A DNA stretch of 38,249 nt from an uncultured Bacilli bacterium (lineage in GTDB: Bacteria; Bacillota_I; Bacilli_A; RF39; UBA660). Location of the stretch: assembly GCA_947632415.1 (NCBI GenBank), contig CANRPB010000005.1, forward strand, positions 1-38,249. The letters are read 5' to 3'. Both the position numbers and the translations under genes were made by a program. The notes under the pieces were generated by a model. It had not been told where the DNA came from. It ran no database searches and saw nothing but the letters and a program-made list of their open reading frames with translations. Shown in pieces: positions 9,007 through 31,317 of the stretch. Within the stretch, counting starts at the first letter, position 1. Each line of letters starts with the position of its first letter.

Positions 9007-9033
9007 ACACAGATGTTTATAGGGGGAGATAGT

Positions 9034-10800
9034 ATGTTAAAAAAGGTTAGTTTATTTATGTTTTTGGCATTTTGCGCTTTATTTATATCGGTAGATGGTG
9101 TAAGTGCTGAGCAATGGGTATATCAAAAGATGGCTTTAACTTCTCATCATTTAATGAGTTACAATAATGATAGAGATGCTTTTGGTAGAGCTAATCTTCA
9201 TATAATTGAGGATGTAGATACAGCAAGTAGTTATAGTGCTGGTGATGGAGAAACGAGATATGCTTATTGTGCTGATGTTGATACAGGTGGATACAATGGA
9301 ACATATGTAAGATCTTTAATTAATAATAGTGACTATAATGGCAATGGAGCTAAAATGAGAGCAATTTTAAGTAGTTCTTATCCTTTTGTTACGTTAAATG
9401 AGATGAAGGCGTTATACAGGGAGCAAATGGGTGAAAATTTGTATAATGCTAATGCGATAAAAGATTTGACATATCAAGAGGCAATATATGTTTCGCAAGC
9501 TGCTGTTTGGACAATAAGTAATCCTAATAGAACTCCATTTACTTATTCACATAATATGGAAGATTCGGAAATGTTAAGTTTGACACATGGAAGAATTGGT
9601 TTAACTTGTGATTGGTCAGTAACAGATCCAAGTGCTGAAAATTATTGCTACCCATCAGTAGAAGCTACAAAATATGAAAAAAATGAAGCGGTTGTAGGTA
9701 AAAGAGTAAATGCTATGGTTGAGTGGTTATTATCACTTGATGGTAGTGAAATTGATGGAAGTGGAAATGTTAATGTCAATGTTGTTTCTAAGGAGTTAAC
9801 TTATGATAATAGCAAGGACAAGAATATAGCAATAGTAAAATTTAAAGTTAGTTTGGATAATTTAACAGGTGTTGATTCATTGTCTGAAACAAATGTTAAA
9901 GTAACTGATGCTAATTCTCAAGTAATTAATACTGATTATAAAGATGGTGTTTATACAATTACACAGGAGTATGATTCTAATATTAAAAATGTTAAGTTTG
10001 ATATTTCTGTCGATTATAGTTCAAGTTATGGAAAGAAAGCCTATTTATACAAATCAAGTGGACAACAAGATTTAGTAAGTGTTGAAAATAGTAGTGTTAC
10101 TAAGAATGCTAAAGCTAATGTTGAGATTGATAATGATGGAGGCGATGCTGAGTTTTCTAAGGTTGATATAACTAATCAGCAGGAACTTCCAGGGGCAACA
10201 TTAAGAGTTTTGGATGCTAATGGAAATTTAATTGAAGAGTGGGTTTCTACAAATGAAAAGCATATCATAAAAAATCTTAAAGAGGGTAAATATACTTTAG
10301 TTGAAATTATTGCTCCAGAAGGATATGTAACGGCTAATTCTGTTGAGTTTGAGGTAAAAAAAGGTGAAGTTACACAAGTTACTATGATTGATGATGTTAC
10401 TAAAGTTTTAATATCTAAGAAAGATTTTACGACTGAAGAAGAGGTTGTGGGTGCTAAACTTCAAATAAAAGACAAAGATGGTAATGTTATTTATGAATGG
10501 ATTTCGGGAACAGAACCATACTATATTGAAAAGTTACCTGTGGGTAAATATACATTAGTTGAAACAGTATATCCAAATGGCTATGAAGAGGGAATGATTG
10601 TTGATGGCGTTCTTGTATCAGAATATGATTTTGAAGTAGCTAATACTGGAGAAATTCAAACTATTGATGTATATAATAGAGCTAGTGTAATTACTGATGT
10701 ACCAAATACTGGAATTCATACATCTATTACTTTAGGAACTATTTTAATTATAACAGGTAGTTTAGTAGTATTTATTTCAAGAAAAAAGAGATTAAATTAA
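9034..10800 (+). CDS. Cys-Gln thioester bond-forming surface protein with SpaA-like domains and VPNTG cell-wall anchor
   Basis: Signal peptide; N-terminal thioester-type region (YCADVDTGG ... ISQAAVWTIS); two SpaA/prealbumin-like repeats (KVDITNQQELPGATLRVLDANGNLIEEWVSTNEKHIIKNLKEGKYTLVEIIAPEGY and KKDFTTEEEVVGAKLQIKDKDGNVIYEWISGTEPYYIEKLPVGKYTLVETVYPNGY); C-terminal VPNTG-TM-RKK. ATG 9034 follows GGGGGAG. Confidence 0.88.
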   Translation: MLKKVSLFMFLAFCALFISVDGVSAEQWVYQKMALTSHHLMSYNNDRDAFGRANLHIIEDVDTASSYSAGDGETRYAYCADVDTGGYNGTYVRSLINNSDYNGNGAKMRAILSSSYPFVTLNEMKALYREQMGENLYNANAIKDLTYQEAIYVSQAAVWTISNPNRTPFTYSHNMEDSEMLSLTHGRIGLTCDWSVTDPSAENYCYPSVEATKYEKNEAVVGKRVNAMVEWLLSLDGSEIDGSGNVNVNVVSKELTYDNSKDKNIAIVKFKVSLDNLTGVDSLSETNVKVTDANSQVINTDYKDGVYTITQEYDSNIKNVKFDISVDYSSSYGKKAYLYKSSGQQDLVSVENSSVTKNAKANVEIDNDGGDAEFSKVDITNQQELPGATLRVLDANGNLIEEWVSTNEKHIIKNLKEGKYTLVEIIAPEGYVTANSVEFEVKKGEVTQVTMIDDVTKVLISKKDFTTEEEVVGAKLQIKDKDGNVIYEWISGTEPYYIEKLPVGKYTLVETVYPNGYEEGMIVDGVLVSEYDFEVANTGEIQTIDVYNRASVITDVPNTGIHTSITLGTILIITGSLVVFISRKKRLN

Positions 10801-10868: not shown

Positions 10869-10941
10869 AGACTTATTTTTTTATATACTTTTTTGTCGAA
10901 CTTTGTTATAATTATATTATCATGCTAGGAGGGTGTTATTT

Positions 10942-12927
10942 ATGAGTATTAAAAAATATTGGTTACATTCTTTTATTTGTATACTATTATTTTTAGTAAA
11001 TATAAATGTTTGTTATGGTTTAGATGGTATTGTTAATGGTACTAGTATTCATGTTAGAAGTGGTGCTGGGACGAGTTATGAAAGTTTAGGCAAAGTTGAT
11101 TTGCCATCGGTTTATACATTGCTTGATGAAAATAAGATATCTCCAACTGATGGAACTAGTGCTAATTGTTCTTATTGGTATAAAATATCATATAATAATC
11201 AGGATGGTTATATTTGTAGTATTTATCTAACGATTGTTTCTGATAAGGGAACAGCAGGGGGAACAGGGGATTTTGAGGCTGATTTGGTTCAGTTTCCTGA
11301 TAGTTACAAAGAAAGTTTACGTCAGTTACATAGTCTTTATCCTAATGCTACCTTCACTGCTTTTAATACGGGTTTAGATTGGCAAACGGTTGTAGATAAT
11401 GAGAATTATATAAAGTCAGGCTCTCCTAAAAATAGTGCTAGAAGTTTGATGCAGACTAAATATGATGGTTATAAATCAACTAATAGTATTGTCTATAATT
11501 GGGCAACTAATATTTGGAATACTAATATATCTGGTGGTGGATCATCGTGGTTTGCGGCTCATGAAGATGTTATATCATATTACTTGGATCCTAGAAATTT
11601 CTTAACTTATAATAGTGTTTTTATGTTTTTAAATCATGGATATTCTACTAATATCAATTATAATGAAGGTGCGATTGATAATATATTAAAAGGTAGTTTT
11701 ATGTCGGGTAATATGACTAATGATAATGTTCATAGTTTTGCTAATGCTTTTATTGATGCTGGTAGACAATCGGGTATTAGTCCATATTATTTAGCGGCTC
11801 GTGTTATTCAAGAGATAGGACGTAGTTCAACTAGGAGTAGTTATGTTAATGGTTCTAGTGGTTATTATAATTACTATAATATTGATGCTTCGGGAAATGA
11901 TCATTTGGCTAATGCTTTGAATCGGGCTAAGAATGAAGGCTGGGATGATGATTATAAGGCGATAGTAGGAGGTGCTAAGTTTATTGCTGATGGTTATGTA
12001 AGTACTGGTCAAAGCACTCTTTATTTAGAAAAATGGGATGTTGTTGATGGTGGAAATGGTTTTTATAGTCATCAGTACATGCAGAATATTCAGGCTCCTG
12101 TGAGTGAGGCTAATACTTTATATAATACATATCTACAAAATGATTTAATGACAGGAAATATGGAATTTTTAATACCTGTTTATACGGGTATGACAGCAGG
12201 TACTAAGTTACCAAATACAGGTAATCCTAATAATTATTTAAGGGAAGTAACTATTAATGGTTATGTTATTAATGGTTTTGATATTAATCAACTTGAGTAT
12301 AATTATAATGTTTCTTCTGTAACAAATCAGGTAGAAATAGGGGCTAATAAAATAGCTAATACATCAAGTGTTAATGGAATTGGAACTATTGAAATAAAAG
12401 ATAATAGTTATACTCATAGTATTACTGTTACAGCTGAAAATGGGAATGTAAGAACCTACAAGATTAATTTTACTAAGGATGATGATAAGCCAATTTCAAT
12501 CAGTGATATTATTAATTCTAAGGGTTATGTAAGTGATGGTGTGTATTTATCAGGAATAAATGTTGGAACTAGCGCTGATAGCCTTGCTGATAATTTAAAA
12601 TCAGGAATATCTAATATAAGTATAAGTATAACTAATAGTGCTGGTAGTATAAAGACAACTGATACAGTGGCAACAGGTGATAAAGTTACTATTACAAGTG
12701 GTAATGAAACTAAGACATATACTGTTATTATCTATGGCGATTTGAATGGTGATGGAAAAATTGCATCAAGTGATTATGTTTTTGTAAAAAATTATATAAT
12801 GGGTACTAAAGTTTTATTATCTGAGCAAATAAAAGCCGGTGATATAAATAAAGATGGTAGAAGCACATCAAGTGATTATGTACTTATAAAAAATCATATA
12901 ATGGGAACGAATATTATTAAACAATAA
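10942..12927 (+). CDS. Secreted SH3-domain beta-N-acetylglucosaminidase with cadherin-like beta-sandwich and C-terminal dockerin
   Basis: Signal peptide; SH3b (IVNGTSIHVRSGAGTSYESLGKV); glucosaminidase-type region (SWFAAHEDVISYYLDPRNFLTYNSVFMFL...SGISPYYLAARVIQEIG); cadherin-like (NYLREVTINGYVINGFDINQLEYNYNV...VTAENGNVRTYKINFTK); two dockerin repeats (GDLNGDGKIASSDYVFVKNYIMGT, GDINKDGRSTSSDYVLIKNHIMGT). RBS GGAGGG before ATG 10942. Confidence 0.88.
   Translation: MSIKKYWLHSFICILLFLVNINVCYGLDGIVNGTSIHVRSGAGTSYESLGKVDLPSVYTLLDENKISPTDGTSANCSYWYKISYNNQDGYICSIYLTIVSDKGTAGGTGDFEADLVQFPDSYKESLRQLHSLYPNATFTAFNTGLDWQTVVDNENYIKSGSPKNSARSLMQTKYDGYKSTNSIVYNWATNIWNTNISGGGSSWFAAHEDVISYYLDPRNFLTYNSVFMFLNHGYSTNINYNEGAIDNILKGSFMSGNMTNDNVHSFANAFIDAGRQSGISPYYLAARVIQEIGRSSTRSSYVNGSSGYYNYYNIDASGNDHLANALNRAKNEGWDDDYKAIVGGAKFIADGYVSTGQSTLYLEKWDVVDGGNGFYSHQYMQNIQAPVSEANTLYNTYLQNDLMTGNMEFLIPVYTGMTAGTKLPNTGNPNNYLREVTINGYVINGFDINQLEYNYNVSSVTNQVEIGANKIANTSSVNGIGTIEIKDNSYTHSITVTAENGNVRTYKINFTKDDDKPISISDIINSKGYVSDGVYLSGINVGTSADSLADNLKSGISNISISITNSAGSIKTTDTVATGDKVTITSGNETKTYTVIIYGDLNGDGKIASSDYVFVKNYIMGTKVLLSEQIKAGDINKDGRSTSSDYVLIKNHIMGTNIIKQ
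12739..12924 (+). repeat. Duplicated dockerin calcium-binding repeats, 102-bp period
   Basis: Identical 16-mer CATCAAGTGATTATGT at 12764 and 12866 within two DxNxDG repeats. Confidence 0.85.
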
Positions 12928-12938
12928 AGGAGAGTATT

Positions 12939-14309
12939 ATGAAAATATTAAAGAAAACATTATTTTTAATTTCATTTTTGATATTAATTCCATTAGTAAA
13001 TGCTGGTTCATTTACGGCTGGTTCAAGTTCTACTAATCCAACTGTTGGTTCAAAAGTAACCATTACTGTAAATGGTAGTAATTTGGCTGGTAAGTTTACT
13101 GTTTCATCTTCAAATACAAGTGTTTTATCTGGTGGCGGAAGCATATGGGTGGAAAATGGAAGCAATAGTGTTACATTTGAGGCTAAAAGTGCTGGAAGCA
13201 CTGTTATAACTATAAATGCTTCTGATGTTTCAGATAGTTCAGATGGTAGTCCTATAACTGGAAGTAAAACGATAAACATAACTGTTGCTAATAGTGGTTC
13301 TAGAACGAATAATGGTGGAACTAATGCTATTACAAATAATAATACAATTAAGTCATCAATTAACTATTTAACAAAATTGGAAATAGAGGGTGTTCAATTA
13401 AGTCCTGCTTTTGATAAAAATACAATTGAATATGAAGTTTTATTGGAACCTGGGACAGAAAAGATAAATGTAATTGCTGAAAAAGAAAGTAGTGTATCAT
13501 ATGTAACTGGTGTTGGTGAAGTACAGGTTAGTGAAGGTGTTAATTTTATAAGTGTTGTTGTTACGGCTGAAAATGGTGCTAAAAAAACATACATAATTAA
13601 GGCTACTGTTCCAGAGGAAAATCCTATTATTGTTAATGTTGATGATAAAGAAATGACACTTGTTAAAAAAAGTGAGGCAATGCCAGGTAGTAGTGATTAC
13701 TATGTATTGGGTAGTGTGGTTATTAATGATATTGAAGTACCAGCATATATTAATGATATAACTGGCTATGTATTAGTTGCTTTGAAGGATAGTGAAGGCA
13801 ATGTTGAACTTTATCGTTATGATAAAGAAAATGCTTCATATTCAAAATATAATGAATTTGGTTTTAATGCTATTAGGATTAGTTTGGTTAATGCTCCAAG
13901 TATTCCGGATGGTTATAAGTTAGAAAAGATTGTTATAAATGATATTGAAGTGGAAGCCTATACTAAGGAGAATAGTTATCCTTTAGTGTATGGAATTAAT
14001 TTAGAAACGGGAAAATCAAGTTTTTATACGTATGATAGTTTAGAAAATACTATTCAAAGATATGAGGTTAATGAAACAAAAGAAAATTCGATTGATTATT
14101 CCTATTATATAATACTTGGATTATCTGGAGTTATTATATTTCAATTTATCATAATGATTATAGTTACTATTTCTAAAAATAGGAAACAAAAGAAAAAATT
14201 ACGTAATAAATTAGATACAAAAACTGAGTTTGAAAAAAATAATGAGAGTTTGTCAGAAAATACTAAAAATAACGATAATTCAGAACATGATGGCATGTAT
14301 AAATTTTAA
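12939..14309 (+). CDS. Membrane-anchored surface protein: N-terminal Ig/cohesin-like domain, cadherin-like beta-sandwich, duplicated module, C-terminal TM
   Basis: Signal peptide; NPTVGSKVTITVNGSNLAGKFTVSSSNTSVL...SAGSTVITI; cadherin-like NYLTKLEIEGVQLSPAFDKNTIEYEV...VTAENGAKKTYIIKATV; TM YYIILGLSGVIIFQFIIMIIVTI then a charged tail. Confidence 0.8.
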   Translation: MKILKKTLFLISFLILIPLVNAGSFTAGSSSTNPTVGSKVTITVNGSNLAGKFTVSSSNTSVLSGGGSIWVENGSNSVTFEAKSAGSTVITINASDVSDSSDGSPITGSKTINITVANSGSRTNNGGTNAITNNNTIKSSINYLTKLEIEGVQLSPAFDKNTIEYEVLLEPGTEKINVIAEKESSVSYVTGVGEVQVSEGVNFISVVVTAENGAKKTYIIKATVPEENPIIVNVDDKEMTLVKKSEAMPGSSDYYVLGSVVINDIEVPAYINDITGYVLVALKDSEGNVELYRYDKENASYSKYNEFGFNAIRISLVNAPSIPDGYKLEKIVINDIEVEAYTKENSYPLVYGINLETGKSSFYTYDSLENTIQRYEVNETKENSIDYSYYIILGLSGVIIFQFIIMIIVTISKNRKQKKKLRNKLDTKTEFEKNNESLSENTKNNDNSEHDGMYKF

Positions 14310-24305: not shown

Positions 24306-24346
24306 ATAATTTGATGGGAATATAAAATTGTTTATAGGTGATTTTT

Positions 24347-26107
24347 ATGAAAAAAATTATAATTTCAAATTTAAAATGTATAATAATTTCTCTATGTTTT
24401 TCGTTAATATTTGGTTTTTTATTATCAAAATTCTTGTTTCCGGATTTTCAATTCGCAATTCTTAGTAGTGAAATGTCTGATTATATTTCTGTTGGAAATA
24501 GGGAAAATGTAAAGCTAGAAATTAATTGTGATAAAAATGATTGTTACGTTGATATACCAGAATATTATATTGGTAAAGAAATGAAAATATTTTACACAAA
24601 AGAAGGAAAAAACATTGAAAATTTATATGTAAATGGTAATATACAAAAAACATATAAAATTGAGTCATATGCGAATGATAGATATGATAATATAACATTA
24701 TTCAATATTGCTAGAGTTTCTAATTCTCGTTATTTTGCATTTTTCATAATTTCATTTTTAACATTATCACTTATGTTATTCATCTTTTCCAATAAAAAAG
24801 TTAAATTACATAATAACATAATAAAAGTTATAGGAAAAAAACATATTTTAATAACATCAATTATTATTTTATTAACTTTCGTATTTACTTGTGGTTGTGA
24901 TGCAAAAGTTATTATAAATGCTGCTCGATGGTTTGCCCAGGGAATTGATATTTACCAGTTTCAAATGAATTCTAGAAATTTACTTGGAACAGTTTATGCA
25001 GAGTTTCCATATAACCCATTATCGATGTTTCTTTATGGTGGTTTTTTTAAAATATATGGTTTAGTATTTAAAAATTTTCCATTGATAAGTGGTTATCCAC
25101 ATTTTCAAGTCTTTTCTATAAAAATCGTTAATTTAATTTTAATTCAAATTACTGTTTTAGCCACTTTATCATTTTTATATAAGGAGAAAAAAGTTGATAA
25201 GAAAAAAGTTTTATTAACTTATTATCTATCTATTTTTAATCCAATAACATTTTATGTAGCTTTTATATTTGTACAACTAGATTTATTCTCCTTATGTTTA
25301 TTAACGATAGGGTTTTTATTGTTGCCAAAGATTAGAGAAAAAAATTATTTGGGTGTTATGCTAGTTTCACTTGGACTAAATATTAAAACTCAGCTTTTAG
25401 TCATATTACCTATATTCTTGCTTTCATTATTTATATATTCATTTTCAAAGAATAATATAAAAAATGGATTGAAAAAATTCTTGTGTTCTTGTTACGTAAT
25501 AATAGTAATTTTCACAATTTTTATGGTAACTAACATAATATTAAAGACACCATATTACTTAGTTACATCTAACTTACAACAAGCTGAAAGACTATATTAT
25601 ACTATTGTTAATTATATGGGTTCTACATCGATTTATGTTTCAATACTATTTATAGGAATGGCAATATATTATTATGTTTTTAATATAAGAATAGATATCA
25701 AATTTTCAAATCTTGTTAAAATTAATCTTTTATATATGATGATTTTAATATTCTTATTAAGTTCATCAATTGTTCCCACTCCATCAATTTATGTTTTATC
25801 TTTACCAGCTTTTATTTTAATATTGTATGAGGAAGATGATTGGTTAAAAATTATTATAATATATTTATGTTCTATTGGTATAATTGTCTTACCAATGTTG
25901 AGTGATTATGGTGATATTACAATTTTGTTAAGTGGATTTAATAAAAAGTCACTTTTAAGCATTTTTTTAGATAACTGTGATAGTGATCAATATGTAAAAT
26001 TTAATAATATTATTTTTACAATATCAGTTGCTTCGATGTTGTCATACAGTTTATATGCTATAAAAAAATCAAAAAGATATTTGGAGGTTACAGATAATGA
26101 AGTATGA
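24347..26107 (+). CDS. Multi-TM membrane protein, probable GT-C type glycosyltransferase
   Basis: About 10 hydrophobic segments; NAARWFAQGIDIYQFQ...YAEFPYNPLSMFLYGGFFKIYG; lies beside GtrB-like and GtrA genes. ATG 24347 has the better RBS. Confidence 0.7.
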   Translation: MKKIIISNLKCIIISLCFSLIFGFLLSKFLFPDFQFAILSSEMSDYISVGNRENVKLEINCDKNDCYVDIPEYYIGKEMKIFYTKEGKNIENLYVNGNIQKTYKIESYANDRYDNITLFNIARVSNSRYFAFFIISFLTLSLMLFIFSNKKVKLHNNIIKVIGKKHILITSIIILLTFVFTCGCDAKVIINAARWFAQGIDIYQFQMNSRNLLGTVYAEFPYNPLSMFLYGGFFKIYGLVFKNFPLISGYPHFQVFSIKIVNLILIQITVLATLSFLYKEKKVDKKKVLLTYYLSIFNPITFYVAFIFVQLDLFSLCLLTIGFLLLPKIREKNYLGVMLVSLGLNIKTQLLVILPIFLLSLFIYSFSKNNIKNGLKKFLCSCYVIIVIFTIFMVTNIILKTPYYLVTSNLQQAERLYYTIVNYMGSTSIYVSILFIGMAIYYYVFNIRIDIKFSNLVKINLLYMMILIFLLSSSIVPTPSIYVLSLPAFILILYEEDDWLKIIIIYLCSIGIIVLPMLSDYGDITILLSGFNKKSLLSIFLDNCDSDQYVKFNNIIFTISVASMLSYSLYAIKKSKRYLEVTDNEV

Positions 26108-27653: not shown

Positions 27654-27968
27654 TAATCTTTAATTATTTTATGCTGAATTAATAATAATATCAAAATCAT
27701 TTATCTCATTTTGTGATATTCATAAAAAACAACTGTTATACGGATCTAAAATAATATTGCTTTTATGTTATAAATATAAGATAATTGATTTATTTATAGG
27801 AATATAGATTTGATACATTATATATGTTTCATAATAATCTGAGCATAGAAAATTTTAAAAATAATTAATTTTTATTCTATATAATTAGAAATTATGGAAA
27901 ATATTGGATTATACAAACATTGAAAAAAAGATTTAAAATAAGTAAATTATAAAAAAACATGTAAAAAA

Positions 27969-28019
27969 GTTAACCTGAAAGTTAACTAATATAATAAGTT
28001 AATTTACTTATCTTTTTTT
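27969..28019 (+). promoter_or_regulatory. Candidate hairpin pair with T-run (terminator or attenuator-like) in the long intergenic region
   Basis: AGTTAAC-ctgaaa-GTTAACT at 27969-27987 and TAAGT-taattt-ACTTA at 27995-28010, then TCTTTTTTT. Confidence 0.45.
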
Positions 28020-28313
28020 GTACGAAAGTATATCTTTACCTTTATATATATATTAAAATTTTTTAGCAATTTAATATTAATTATAACAAACATTAATAAT
28101 AAATATTAAATAACAATATTTACAATAAAATCCCCACTTTAGCATGATATCAAGATTTATTTAAATCAATCCCACTTAGAACAAATAGTTTATATGCGAT
28201 GTTATCATAAAAGATGTTTAAAATTTTATTTTAATAGCATTACTATTTTTTGAAAGAACTTTTTTAATATAACAATTTAGTGTATAATAGTAGCAAGTTT
28301 TTTGAGGTGAGAT

Positions 28314-29858
28314 ATGTATTATAATATGTTAAAAAAATATTCTTTTATATTTTTAATAGTATTGTTGTCCTTTATTTGTCTGCGAATATTTGTAATAGTT
28401 GATAACAAGGAAAGCAATGAGTCTATATATTCAACAAGAAAGGAATTAAAAGGTCATATTGCAAATATTACTATTAATAATGTTAGTGGTGTTTATAATA
28501 ATAACGATAATTCATTCTATTTTTATGTAAATAATTTAAACGATAGTAAAATTAATAATATAAAGATAAATTCATCTATTGATTTAGATTATAAAATAAT
28601 TGATAGAAATATTTTGAATTTTACAGATGGTAAATTGTTATTATACAATAATAAGTATTATCAAAATGTTAATTTAAAATTTGTATCTATACCAATAATC
28701 TCTATATCATCTACTCCTAATTTAAAAGAATCTTTAATTAATAAAAATCAAATTTCTAATCTTGCTCATGATATTATGTATAAGAATAATTTACAAAATG
28801 ATAAAATGTTAATAACTATAAACACTGGTGATGAACATTCAAATAATAATATTACATATAAAATGTATGGTGATTATCATGTTCGTGGTGGTTCAAGTCT
28901 ATTATATGATAAAAAATCATATAAAGTTAATCTATCCAAATCAATATTTTTATTTAATCAATCATTTTATAACGAATTTATTTTAGATGCATCATACACT
29001 GATTCATCAAAAATAAGAAATAAATTATCAAGTGATTTATGGAATGCAATAAATAATAATCAAAATGTGAACAATGACTTATATACAAGTTATGTGGAAC
29101 TATACATTGATGATGAGTATCAAGGATTATATATAATTAAAAATTCTGTTGACAAATATATGTTAAACTTATCTTCCGATGGCGTGCTAATAAAATACGA
29201 AACTGATATAAATGATTTTTATATTAATAATCTTTTATCAAATAATTTTAAATTAAATAATAATTTTTTTCTTAATTTTGAAATAAAGTATTCCAATAAT
29301 TATCAAAAATCATCTGAATTATTTGTTAATAGATTAAAAAATGTTTACGATAATGACTATAGTTATAAGTCAGTAGTAAATAATTATCATATTGACAATT
29401 ATGTTAATTATAAAGTTTTAATTGGTTTGATAATGGGAGTAGACAATACAACAAAAAATCAATATCTTTCCATGCAAAATAGTAAAGACAAATTGTTGAT
29501 AACACCTTGGGATATGGATTTGAGCTTTGGAGACAATTGGGATGTTAGCAGTTTTAATGGAGAATCATTCGATGCTAATAGTTATTTAAATGGTAATTGG
29601 TTGGATGAGTATGTTTTAGAATCAAATCAATTAAATAATTTAATAAAACAAAGATATTGGGAACTTAGAAAAGATACTATAACAATGGATAATATAAATA
29701 AATACTTAGATGAATACAAAGAATTACTTGTTAGTAGTGGTGCTGCTAAAAGAGATAGTGATAGATGGTATGATTATGATATCGAATATGAAATAGAACA
29801 AATAAGAAAGTGGGCAAATAACAGAATAATTTTTCTAGATGAATATTTTAAGATATAA
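28314..29858 (+). CDS. CotH kinase family protein
   Basis: N-terminal TM; KMYGDYHVRGGSSLLYDKKSYKVNLSKS, LYIDDEYQGLYIIKNSVDKYML, LLITPWDMDLSFGDNW. Confidence 0.88.
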   Translation: MYYNMLKKYSFIFLIVLLSFICLRIFVIVDNKESNESIYSTRKELKGHIANITINNVSGVYNNNDNSFYFYVNNLNDSKINNIKINSSIDLDYKIIDRNILNFTDGKLLLYNNKYYQNVNLKFVSIPIISISSTPNLKESLINKNQISNLAHDIMYKNNLQNDKMLITINTGDEHSNNNITYKMYGDYHVRGGSSLLYDKKSYKVNLSKSIFLFNQSFYNEFILDASYTDSSKIRNKLSSDLWNAINNNQNVNNDLYTSYVELYIDDEYQGLYIIKNSVDKYMLNLSSDGVLIKYETDINDFYINNLLSNNFKLNNNFFLNFEIKYSNNYQKSSELFVNRLKNVYDNDYSYKSVVNNYHIDNYVNYKVLIGLIMGVDNTTKNQYLSMQNSKDKLLITPWDMDLSFGDNWDVSSFNGESFDANSYLNGNWLDEYVLESNQLNNLIKQRYWELRKDTITMDNINKYLDEYKELLVSSGAAKRDSDRWYDYDIEYEIEQIRKWANNRIIFLDEYFKI

Positions 29859-29909
29859 TTAATATGTTTTATGTGTTATAATATAACCATTATTTTTAGG
29901 AGGTAATCT

Positions 29910-30608
29910 ATGTTTAGATATGAAAAAAAATATAAAATAAATAATTTGCAAATTGAACAAATAAAAAATAGATTATCTTCTATAATGAATTTGGACAGCA
30001 ATTTAAGTAATGACGGATACTATAGTATTAGAAGTATTTATTTTGACGATTACTGTGATACTAACCTAAATCAAGTAATTAACGGGCTAAGTGAAAGATT
30101 CAAATATCGAATTCGTTTCTATAATTATAATGATAACTACATAATGCTTGAAAAAAAATACAAAATAAACAATATGACCAAAAAAACAAATTGTAAATTG
30201 ACATCTTCACAAGTTAATGATATTATAAACAACCGTGATATTGTCATAACCAAGGAAAACCCTAAACTATTAAATGAATTTTATTTAATGATAAAAACAA
30301 GAAACTATACTCCAAAAATAATAATTGACTATGATAGAGTAGCCTATGTATATAGTGCTGGTAATGTAAGAATAACAATCGATTATAATTTGTCATGCAG
30401 TTATAAAATAAAAGACATCTTTGATAAAAATTTACCTAAAATACCATTAATGGATGAAGGTTATGCTATACTGGAAGTAAAATATGATGAATTTATCCCA
30501 GATTTCATTAGATATGCATTACAACTCAATGAATTGGAAAGAATATCTTATTCTAAATACAGCACAGGTAGATTAATGATTAAAGATGTAATAGGAGGAT
30601 GCTTATGA
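29910..30608 (+). CDS. VTC domain-containing protein (putative polyphosphate polymerase)
   Basis: FRYEKKYKI, YSIRSIYFDD, KYRIRFYNYNDNYIMLEKKYK, PKIIIDYDRVAYV, VRITIDYNL, ILEVKYDEFIPDFI, SYSKYSTGRLM. Confidence 0.9.
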   Translation: MFRYEKKYKINNLQIEQIKNRLSSIMNLDSNLSNDGYYSIRSIYFDDYCDTNLNQVINGLSERFKYRIRFYNYNDNYIMLEKKYKINNMTKKTNCKLTSSQVNDIINNRDIVITKENPKLLNEFYLMIKTRNYTPKIIIDYDRVAYVYSAGNVRITIDYNLSCSYKIKDIFDKNLPKIPLMDEGYAILEVKYDEFIPDFIRYALQLNELERISYSKYSTGRLMIKDVIGGCL

Positions 30609-31276
30609 GTTTTTCAGATATTTTCAAAAAGAATTTTCTAGACAATTTTACAGGTAATATTAGTGTTCAATTAGTATTCATAACCCTAATAATGTCACTT
30701 TTATTTTCGATAATTGTGTTTTTTGTTTACAAAATATCAAGCAAAAATACCATCTATTCTAAAAATTTCAACATAACTATGTCATTGATATCAATAATAA
30801 CAGCCAGTGTTGTTTTATCGATGCAAGCCAATATTGTTGTATCTCTTGGAATGGTAGGTGCTTTATCAATTGTCAGATTTAGAACGGCTATAAAAGAACC
30901 ACGAGATTTATTATTTTTATTTTGGTCGATTAGTAATGGTATAATAATAGGAGCAGGTATATATTCAATAGTATTTATCTTAGCAATCGTAATAACCGTA
31001 GGATTACTTGGATTTGATTTAATACCAAGCACTAAAATACCATACTTATTAATTATTAATGTTGATAACATAGAAGCCCTTGATAACACGATTAAAATAT
31101 TAAAAGAAGAAAAAATAAAATATCATATAAAATCACGAAATATATCTAAAGGAAAGATTGATGCCGTGATAGAATTATCAACCAAAAAAACAGATCAACT
31201 GTTTGAAAATTTAAGCAAAATAAATGGAATTACTAACTTTAATTTATTAAGTCAAGATGGAGAATGTCAATTTTAA
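30605..31276 (+). CDS. DUF4956 domain-containing membrane protein
   Basis: TM-rich N-terminus, VSLGMVGALSIVRFRTAIKEPRDLLFLFWSISNGIIIGAG; overlaps the end of the VTC gene. Confidence 0.9.
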   Translation: MSFSDIFKKNFLDNFTGNISVQLVFITLIMSLLFSIIVFFVYKISSKNTIYSKNFNITMSLISIITASVVLSMQANIVVSLGMVGALSIVRFRTAIKEPRDLLFLFWSISNGIIIGAGIYSIVFILAIVITVGLLGFDLIPSTKIPYLLIINVDNIEALDNTIKILKEEKIKYHIKSRNISKGKIDAVIELSTKKTDQLFENLSKINGITNFNLLSQDGECQF

Positions 31277-31288
31277 CATTCTTTTTTC
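31262..31288 (+). terminator. Terminator overlapping the DUF4956 stop codon
   Basis: GAATGT-caatttta-ACATTC followed by TTTTTTC. Confidence 0.7.
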
Positions 31289-31317
31289 TTTACTAAAAAA
31301 GTATATTCGTTTATAAT
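31289..31317 (+). promoter_or_regulatory. Putative sigma-A promoter (TTTACT - 17 nt - TATAAT)
   Basis: TTTACT 31289-31294, TATAAT 31312-31317, just upstream of a new GT gene. Confidence 0.7.

Follow-up and report, generated by a model that had tools for sequence, protein, structure and literature searches.

The cotH-VTC-DUF4956 gene trio analysed here contains an obligate core, formed by the VTC-domain protein and the membrane protein DUF4956, and the exported protein encoded beside this core, either CotH or a Cthe_2159 beta-helix protein, tracks the clade to which the core belongs. Our working interpretation, that the unit is a membrane polyphosphate (polyP) synthesis pair coupled to an exported partner, is tentative, and as a whole statement its probability lies somewhat below even. 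The trio as such has been described before; the additions made here are that it does not depend on Pel, that VTC and DUF4956 are its obligate core, that the exported partner alternates, and that DUF4956 is akin to MgtC.

Organization of the three-gene unit

In the window, the whole 38,249-nt stretch of DNA that was analysed, the genes for CotH, VTC, and DUF4956 are contiguous, genuine open reading frames (ORFs), all on the + strand, that make up one three-gene unit with the following features.

27654 to 28313, no strand: upstream non-coding region, 660 nt, with AT-rich inverted repeats
28314 to 29858, + strand: CotH kinase-like protein, 514 aa (PF08757, 139.7 bits, E 2e-40)
29898 to 29903, + strand: Shine-Dalgarno sequence AGGAGG of the VTC gene
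29910 to 30608, + strand: VTC-domain protein, 232 aa (PF09359, 143.2 bits, E 1.3e-41)
30593 to 30598, + strand: Shine-Dalgarno sequence AGGAGG for DUF4956, within the VTC gene
30605 to 31276, + strand: DUF4956 membrane protein (PF16316, 48.2 bits, E 1.3e-12), ORF also open from the ATG at 30599
31259 to 31292, + strand: terminator-like hairpin (9 bp, stem 31259-31267 / 31276-31284) and T-run, spanning the DUF4956 stop codon

An earlier, sequence-only reading had described three consecutive genes, the last two overlapping, as a discrete unit with a long non-coding region upstream and a terminator over the last stop codon, and all of this held up. VTC and DUF4956 share a 4-nt ATGA overlap, the usual sign of translational coupling, and the terminator hairpin folds with -7.3 kcal/mol (z -2.77). 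This hairpin emerged by folding, as a strict scan for GC-stem terminators, which demands a GC-rich stem and for that reason missed it, found nothing at the end of the unit. The ATG at 30605 is more likely to be the DUF4956 start than the one at 30599, because it is preceded by AGGAGG at 6 nt, is where the relatives begin, and produces the overlap with the VTC stop codon. The inverted repeats in the upstream gap (e.g., 27935-27949 / 28000-28014) are followed by a T-run, and the segment 27940-28022 folds with -11.4 kcal/mol (z -2.0); these elements could form the end of the upstream GtrA transcript. An Rfam search of the 660-nt gap (27654-28313) gave no match.

The unit is flanked upstream by genes for glycosyltransferases, an ABC exporter pair, UDP-galactopyranose mutase, and GtrA, and downstream by genes for a GT4, PssD/PssE-type transferases, and an epimerase-like protein, the ABC pair and the epimerase being read from the sequence. 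Glycan genes on both sides, as proposed before, are therefore a property of the window but not of such loci in general, since a more sensitive search found them near roughly a quarter of the related loci, without a significant difference between CotH-type (14/62) and Cthe-type (4/40) loci (p 0.12). An apparent enrichment at CotH-type loci in a single-sequence search (p 0.014) was discarded, and glycan flanks were rejected as a general feature for this reason. The window also encodes a surface adhesin with thioester (TED) and SpaA domains (9013-10800), of which a similar protein is found downstream of the CotH-VTC-DUF4956 unit at another locus (L071, 5216-6745), as well as an exported protein with SH3 and Dockerin_1 domains (10933-12927), found here in a member of the Bacilli with a small genome, and, adjoining it, a 456-aa cadherin-like surface protein (12939-14309).

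VTC and DUF4956 form an obligate pair

Co-occurrence was surveyed in 395 Bacilli genomes, of which 103 carry VTC, 105 carry DUF4956, and 100 carry both; only 27 shared genomes would be expected (p 3e-83), which excludes chance as the cause of the pairing. In the three genomes with VTC only (G006, G037, and G364), a contig end truncates the VTC gene or lies near a break in it. In the loci that were fetched, DUF4956 lies at most 400 nt from VTC on the same strand for 195 of the 202 VTC ORFs, with a median gap of -3 nt, and of the seven exceptions, two have CotH between both genes (L085 and L225), the remainder being due to contig ends or broken genes. The pairing is obligate, and VTC with DUF4956 is the true core of the trio.

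CotH is associated with VTC as well, as 76 of the 112 CotH-positive Bacilli genomes contain VTC (29 expected, p 1e-30), but the other 36 do not, hence CotH does not generally need VTC. The remark in the sequence-only reading that these families are seen together in other bacteria was confirmed by the survey, whereas the fixed co-occurrence that it proposed to look for applies to DUF4956 (100 of the 103 VTC genomes) and not to CotH, which is optional and often replaced by a Cthe_2159 protein.

Properties of the VTC protein

The PF09359 match of the VTC protein lies far above the curated cut-off of 23 bits, and a profile of 61 diverse relatives, when searched against the PDB, matched Vtc4 (3g3q) with an E of 6e-22 and Vtc2 and Vtc3 more weakly. 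All 22 columns that are invariant among the 61 members are present in the window protein, including the tunnel charges K7, K65, R67, R69, E81, K83, K92, R143, R154, D158, E189, K191, and K216, so the charged VTC motifs are intact, as stated before. The 232 residues comprise the VTC domain alone, without SPX domain or fused transmembrane (TM) part, and no TM segments were predicted. The protein is predicted to be a cytosolic, Vtc4-like polyP polymerase; our literature search found no demonstration of polyP activity for a bacterial VTC of this type. PPK1, PPK2, and PPX were not found in the window's genome (92.9% complete), which would leave VTC as the sole polyP polymerase of a known type there. 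What the unit has in common with the yeast VTC complex (Vtc1/Vtc3/Vtc4) is the Vtc4-related catalytic domain and a separate small TM protein; it differs by the lack of SPX and fused TM parts, and by a TM partner that is an MgtC-like DUF4956 with an ACT domain instead of a DUF202 Vtc1.

Viral F-protein matches in a single-sequence PDB search of the VTC protein were due to chance, and the profile search was used instead. A 1202-aa VTC-CotH "fusion" (genome G422, locus L120) was rejected as a scaffold gap because a run of X separates the two domains. VTC proteins are also encoded by four unannotated "Bacteriophage sp." metagenome scaffolds from a phage collection (MT836222, MT837266, MT838813, and MT835527), which are maybe mislabelled bacterial contigs.

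DUF4956 is a distant relative of MgtC

The AF2 model of DUF4956 (mean pLDDT 88.8) agrees with the small multi-TM protein noted before, the predicted layout being an amphipathic helix, five TM helices, and a C-terminal ACT-like domain. Based on loop charges and the positive-inside rule, the topology is N-out/C-in, with two positively charged cytosolic loops, one of which carries a near-invariant RFR motif (R93-F94-R95, numbered from the ATG at 30599). With this predicted topology, both the RFR motif and the ACT domain would face the cytosol, beside VTC. Alignment of the DUF4956 and MgtC profiles with hhalign gave an E of 5.3e-11 and 97% probability over 211 columns, compared to an E of 0.72 for an unrelated control. 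The likeness to MgtC/SapB proteins is thus full-length, and it extends to a similar predicted TM layout and the C-terminal ACT domain, but DUF4956 is a separate family (PF16316), distinguished by the motif GALSIVRFRT and by VTC as its constant neighbour. The window protein scores 10.7 bits against Pfam MgtC (PF02308), below the curated cut-off of 31.4, and 13 of 15 relatives match this family weakly (best 9e-6). A Foldseek search with the model returned nothing at E <= 0.001, its matches being mainly to the ACT domain, so that this search gave no significant solved relative for the TM part; no DUF202 protein was found in the window's genome. From these profile comparisons we conclude that DUF4956 is a distant MgtC relative, neither a PF02308 member nor a Vtc1/DUF202 protein, in agreement with the MgtC/ACT-type reading of the Streptococcus intermedius protein SIR_1592 (PMC12345266). 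The proposal that DUF4956 is the TM partner of VTC by analogy with the yeast complex therefore survives in part: it is a fixed membrane partner, as its adjacency to nearly all VTC ORFs shows, but of the MgtC and not the Vtc1 kind.

CotH and the second class of exported partner

CotH of the window consists of an N-terminal signal anchor (residues ~11-29), a beta-rich region, and a CotH domain (189-504) whose relation to Bacillus cereus CotH (5jd9) was apparent from both a profile search (E 1.1e-45) and a Foldseek comparison of its AF2 model (E 5.5e-15). D377 and D400, 23 residues apart, match by spacing the catalytic D228/D251 of Bacillus subtilis CotH, and this pair is conserved in 89 of 101 trio CotHs. 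At the usual Glu of the GLYxxxE motif, present in 76 of the 101, the window protein has N277. A hydrophobic N-terminal anchor is found in 97 of these 101 proteins, the four exceptions being mostly ORFs cut by contig ends, which bears out the earlier description of CotH as membrane-tethered and extracytoplasmic. The spore-coat kinases of B. subtilis and B. cereus thus share the kinase-like fold and both catalytic Asp residues with the window CotH, but the latter is signal-anchored and exported, lacks a spore context, and carries N277 for Glu. At four loci (L049, L055, L065, and L070), a CotH of about 960 aa with lamin-tail domains precedes VTC-DUF4956, after which comes a phosphodiester glycosidase (NAGPA, PF09992) cluster.

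The gene beside the VTC-DUF4956 pair encodes CotH at 100 loci, a Cthe_2159 beta-helix protein at 56, and neither at 30. In a tree built from VTC and DUF4956 joined end to end, a clade of 66 rows is devoid of CotH and includes 46 Cthe_2159 rows, while a clade of 88 rows holds all 68 CotH rows; over the 123 rows with a partner label, the switch between both partners requires 4 changes. Trees of VTC alone and of DUF4956 alone require 4 changes each as well, compared to minima of 31 and 33 after shuffling, a contrast that is inflated by near relatives and accompanied by long branches between the clades. Both partner classes occur within the window's own order, and two genomes with two copies (G181 and G187) hold one of each, so taxonomy alone does not explain the split. 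Partner type tracks the clade of the VTC-DUF4956 core. A literature search on Cthe_2159 with polyphosphate found nothing useful. In some Lachnospiraceae (L211, L222, L227, and L253), CotH, a short Cthe_2159 protein, and VTC-DUF4956 occur together, so that both classes are joined.

The trio is not bound to Pel operons

In 2020, the trio was described as an accessory part of the pelDEADAFG operons of Gram-positive streptococci, clostridia, and bifidobacteria (PMC7112168), and the authors of a 2025 study with knockouts of the S. intermedius trio SIR_1592-1594 failed to find it outside Pel (PMC12345266). This accessory set, cotH-PPP-DUF4956(-DUF4832), resembles the window in its contiguous genes of the same families, with a secreted CotH, an MgtC/ACT-type DUF4956, and a Vtc-type polymerase. 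However, PelG was not found in the window's genome, no Pel gene was recognised in the window and no DUF4832 gene adjoining the unit, and the unit lies, with a separate upstream gap and terminator, in a glycan cluster of the ABC-transporter type. PelG was above the cut-off in just 2 of the 395 Bacilli genomes, each time next to a trio; it therefore accompanies 2 of about 100 CotH trios and, within the fetched stretches, none of the others, which contradicts the view that the trio belongs to Pel. Our survey corrects this view, and identifies instead a VTC and DUF4956 core with two exported partner classes. Outside Pel, the stretches that we checked showed the trio on plasmid pNP95 of Pseudobutyrivibrio xylanivorans, in an exopolysaccharide-type cluster with the order CotH-VTC-DUF4956-GT4 as in the window, and on a plasmid of Planococcus maritimus. 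Both are cultured hosts with simple non-Pel contexts, in which the function of the trio is testable away from Pel. A 589-aa multi-TM protein without Pfam match (24338-26107 of the window) resembles in position a DUF6056 protein upstream of the pNP95 trio.

The NELoc-2 cluster of Clostridium perfringens encodes VTC, a "tubulin" of 222-226 aa, CotH, a 685-aa protein, a HEAT protein, and a glycosyltransferase (PMC2879425). The "tubulin" has the position and size of DUF4956, and the gene families match those of the window, where, in contrast, CotH comes first and the 685-aa, HEAT, and synthase genes are absent. The complete order VTC-DUF4956-CotH-hypothetical-HEAT-GT was seen again in Bacilli relatives, as well as on the Planococcus plasmid. 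Eight loci of gut Bacilli (L032, L035, L038, L043, L050, L059, L061, and L132) have a conserved operon in this order, with a protein of 700 aa without Pfam match and a GT2 synthase.

Possible functions of the unit

Yeast Vtc4 polymerises polyP from ATP, and the VTC protein would do the same at the cytosolic face of the membrane. The MgtC-like DUF4956 would anchor or regulate it, and perhaps conducts the polyP chain outwards from an arginine-lined cytosolic mouth formed by the RFR loop. Outside, an exported, membrane-bound partner, CotH here and the Cthe_2159 protein in the sister clade, would receive the effect of the core, and in the window's genome the unit would serve as an accessory, with a transcript of its own, to a cell-surface glycan cluster. 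This coupled-partner interpretation is favoured by the S. intermedius deletions (PMC12345266), as loss of DUF4956 increases Pel and reduces aggregation, and loss of CotH (SIR_1594) reduces both. Against it, no effect was reported for deletion of VTC (SIR_1593) in the same study, CotH is found without VTC in the 36 genomes mentioned above, and some loci hold VTC-DUF4956 without a recognisable exported partner. The RFR region aligns with MgtC, and thus need not be a polyP channel. A stronger version, in which bacterial VTC-DUF4956 both makes polyP and exports it, with DUF4956 as conduit and with interchangeable receivers, CotH or Cthe_2159, that use or display surface polyP, we consider doubtful; if true, it would also hint at transport as a function of the MgtC superfamily.

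The homology with MgtC, in Salmonella a regulator of ATP synthase and of phosphate uptake according to work cited in PMC12345266, also fits a VTC-DUF4956 pair that makes or senses cytosolic polyP, or ATP/phosphate status, without export, with DUF4956 as regulator and CotH acting separately on the surface. The existence of pairs without CotH or Cthe_2159 points in the same direction, as does the difference between the VTC and CotH deletion phenotypes, since no change in Pel or aggregation was reported for the VTC (SIR_1593) deletion (PMC12345266). Yet a purely internal role does not predict that the core phylogeny tracks the exported partner with so few changes, and we judge such a role to be rather unlikely, though a serious contender. 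The VTC deletion, which does not phenocopy that of SIR_1594, also argues against a dependence of CotH on polyP made by VTC, and thus bears on the idea that exported polyP is the phosphate donor with which an extracytoplasmic CotH kinase would phosphorylate glycans or proteins of the surface, where ATP is lacking. The export of CotH, its conserved Asp pair, and its enrichment in VTC genomes agree with this idea, but CotH is often present where VTC is not, ATP is what the known CotH uses in vitro (PMC7821199), and the window CotH lacks the usual Glu, which makes a polyP donor highly improbable. Finally, the triphosphate-tunnel fold hosts several activities, as indicated in PMC4641920, and no report of activity was found in the literature for this VTC clade, so the protein might catalyse hydrolysis, nucleotidyl, or other triphosphate chemistry in a unit unrelated to polyP; given that it matches Vtc4 specifically, better than Vtc2 or Vtc3, this is improbable. 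The VTC-DUF4956 pair is carried by many Bacilli and Lachnospiraceae and, because no classical polyP kinase was found in the window's genome, may represent a polyP system that has escaped notice and has a role at the surface.
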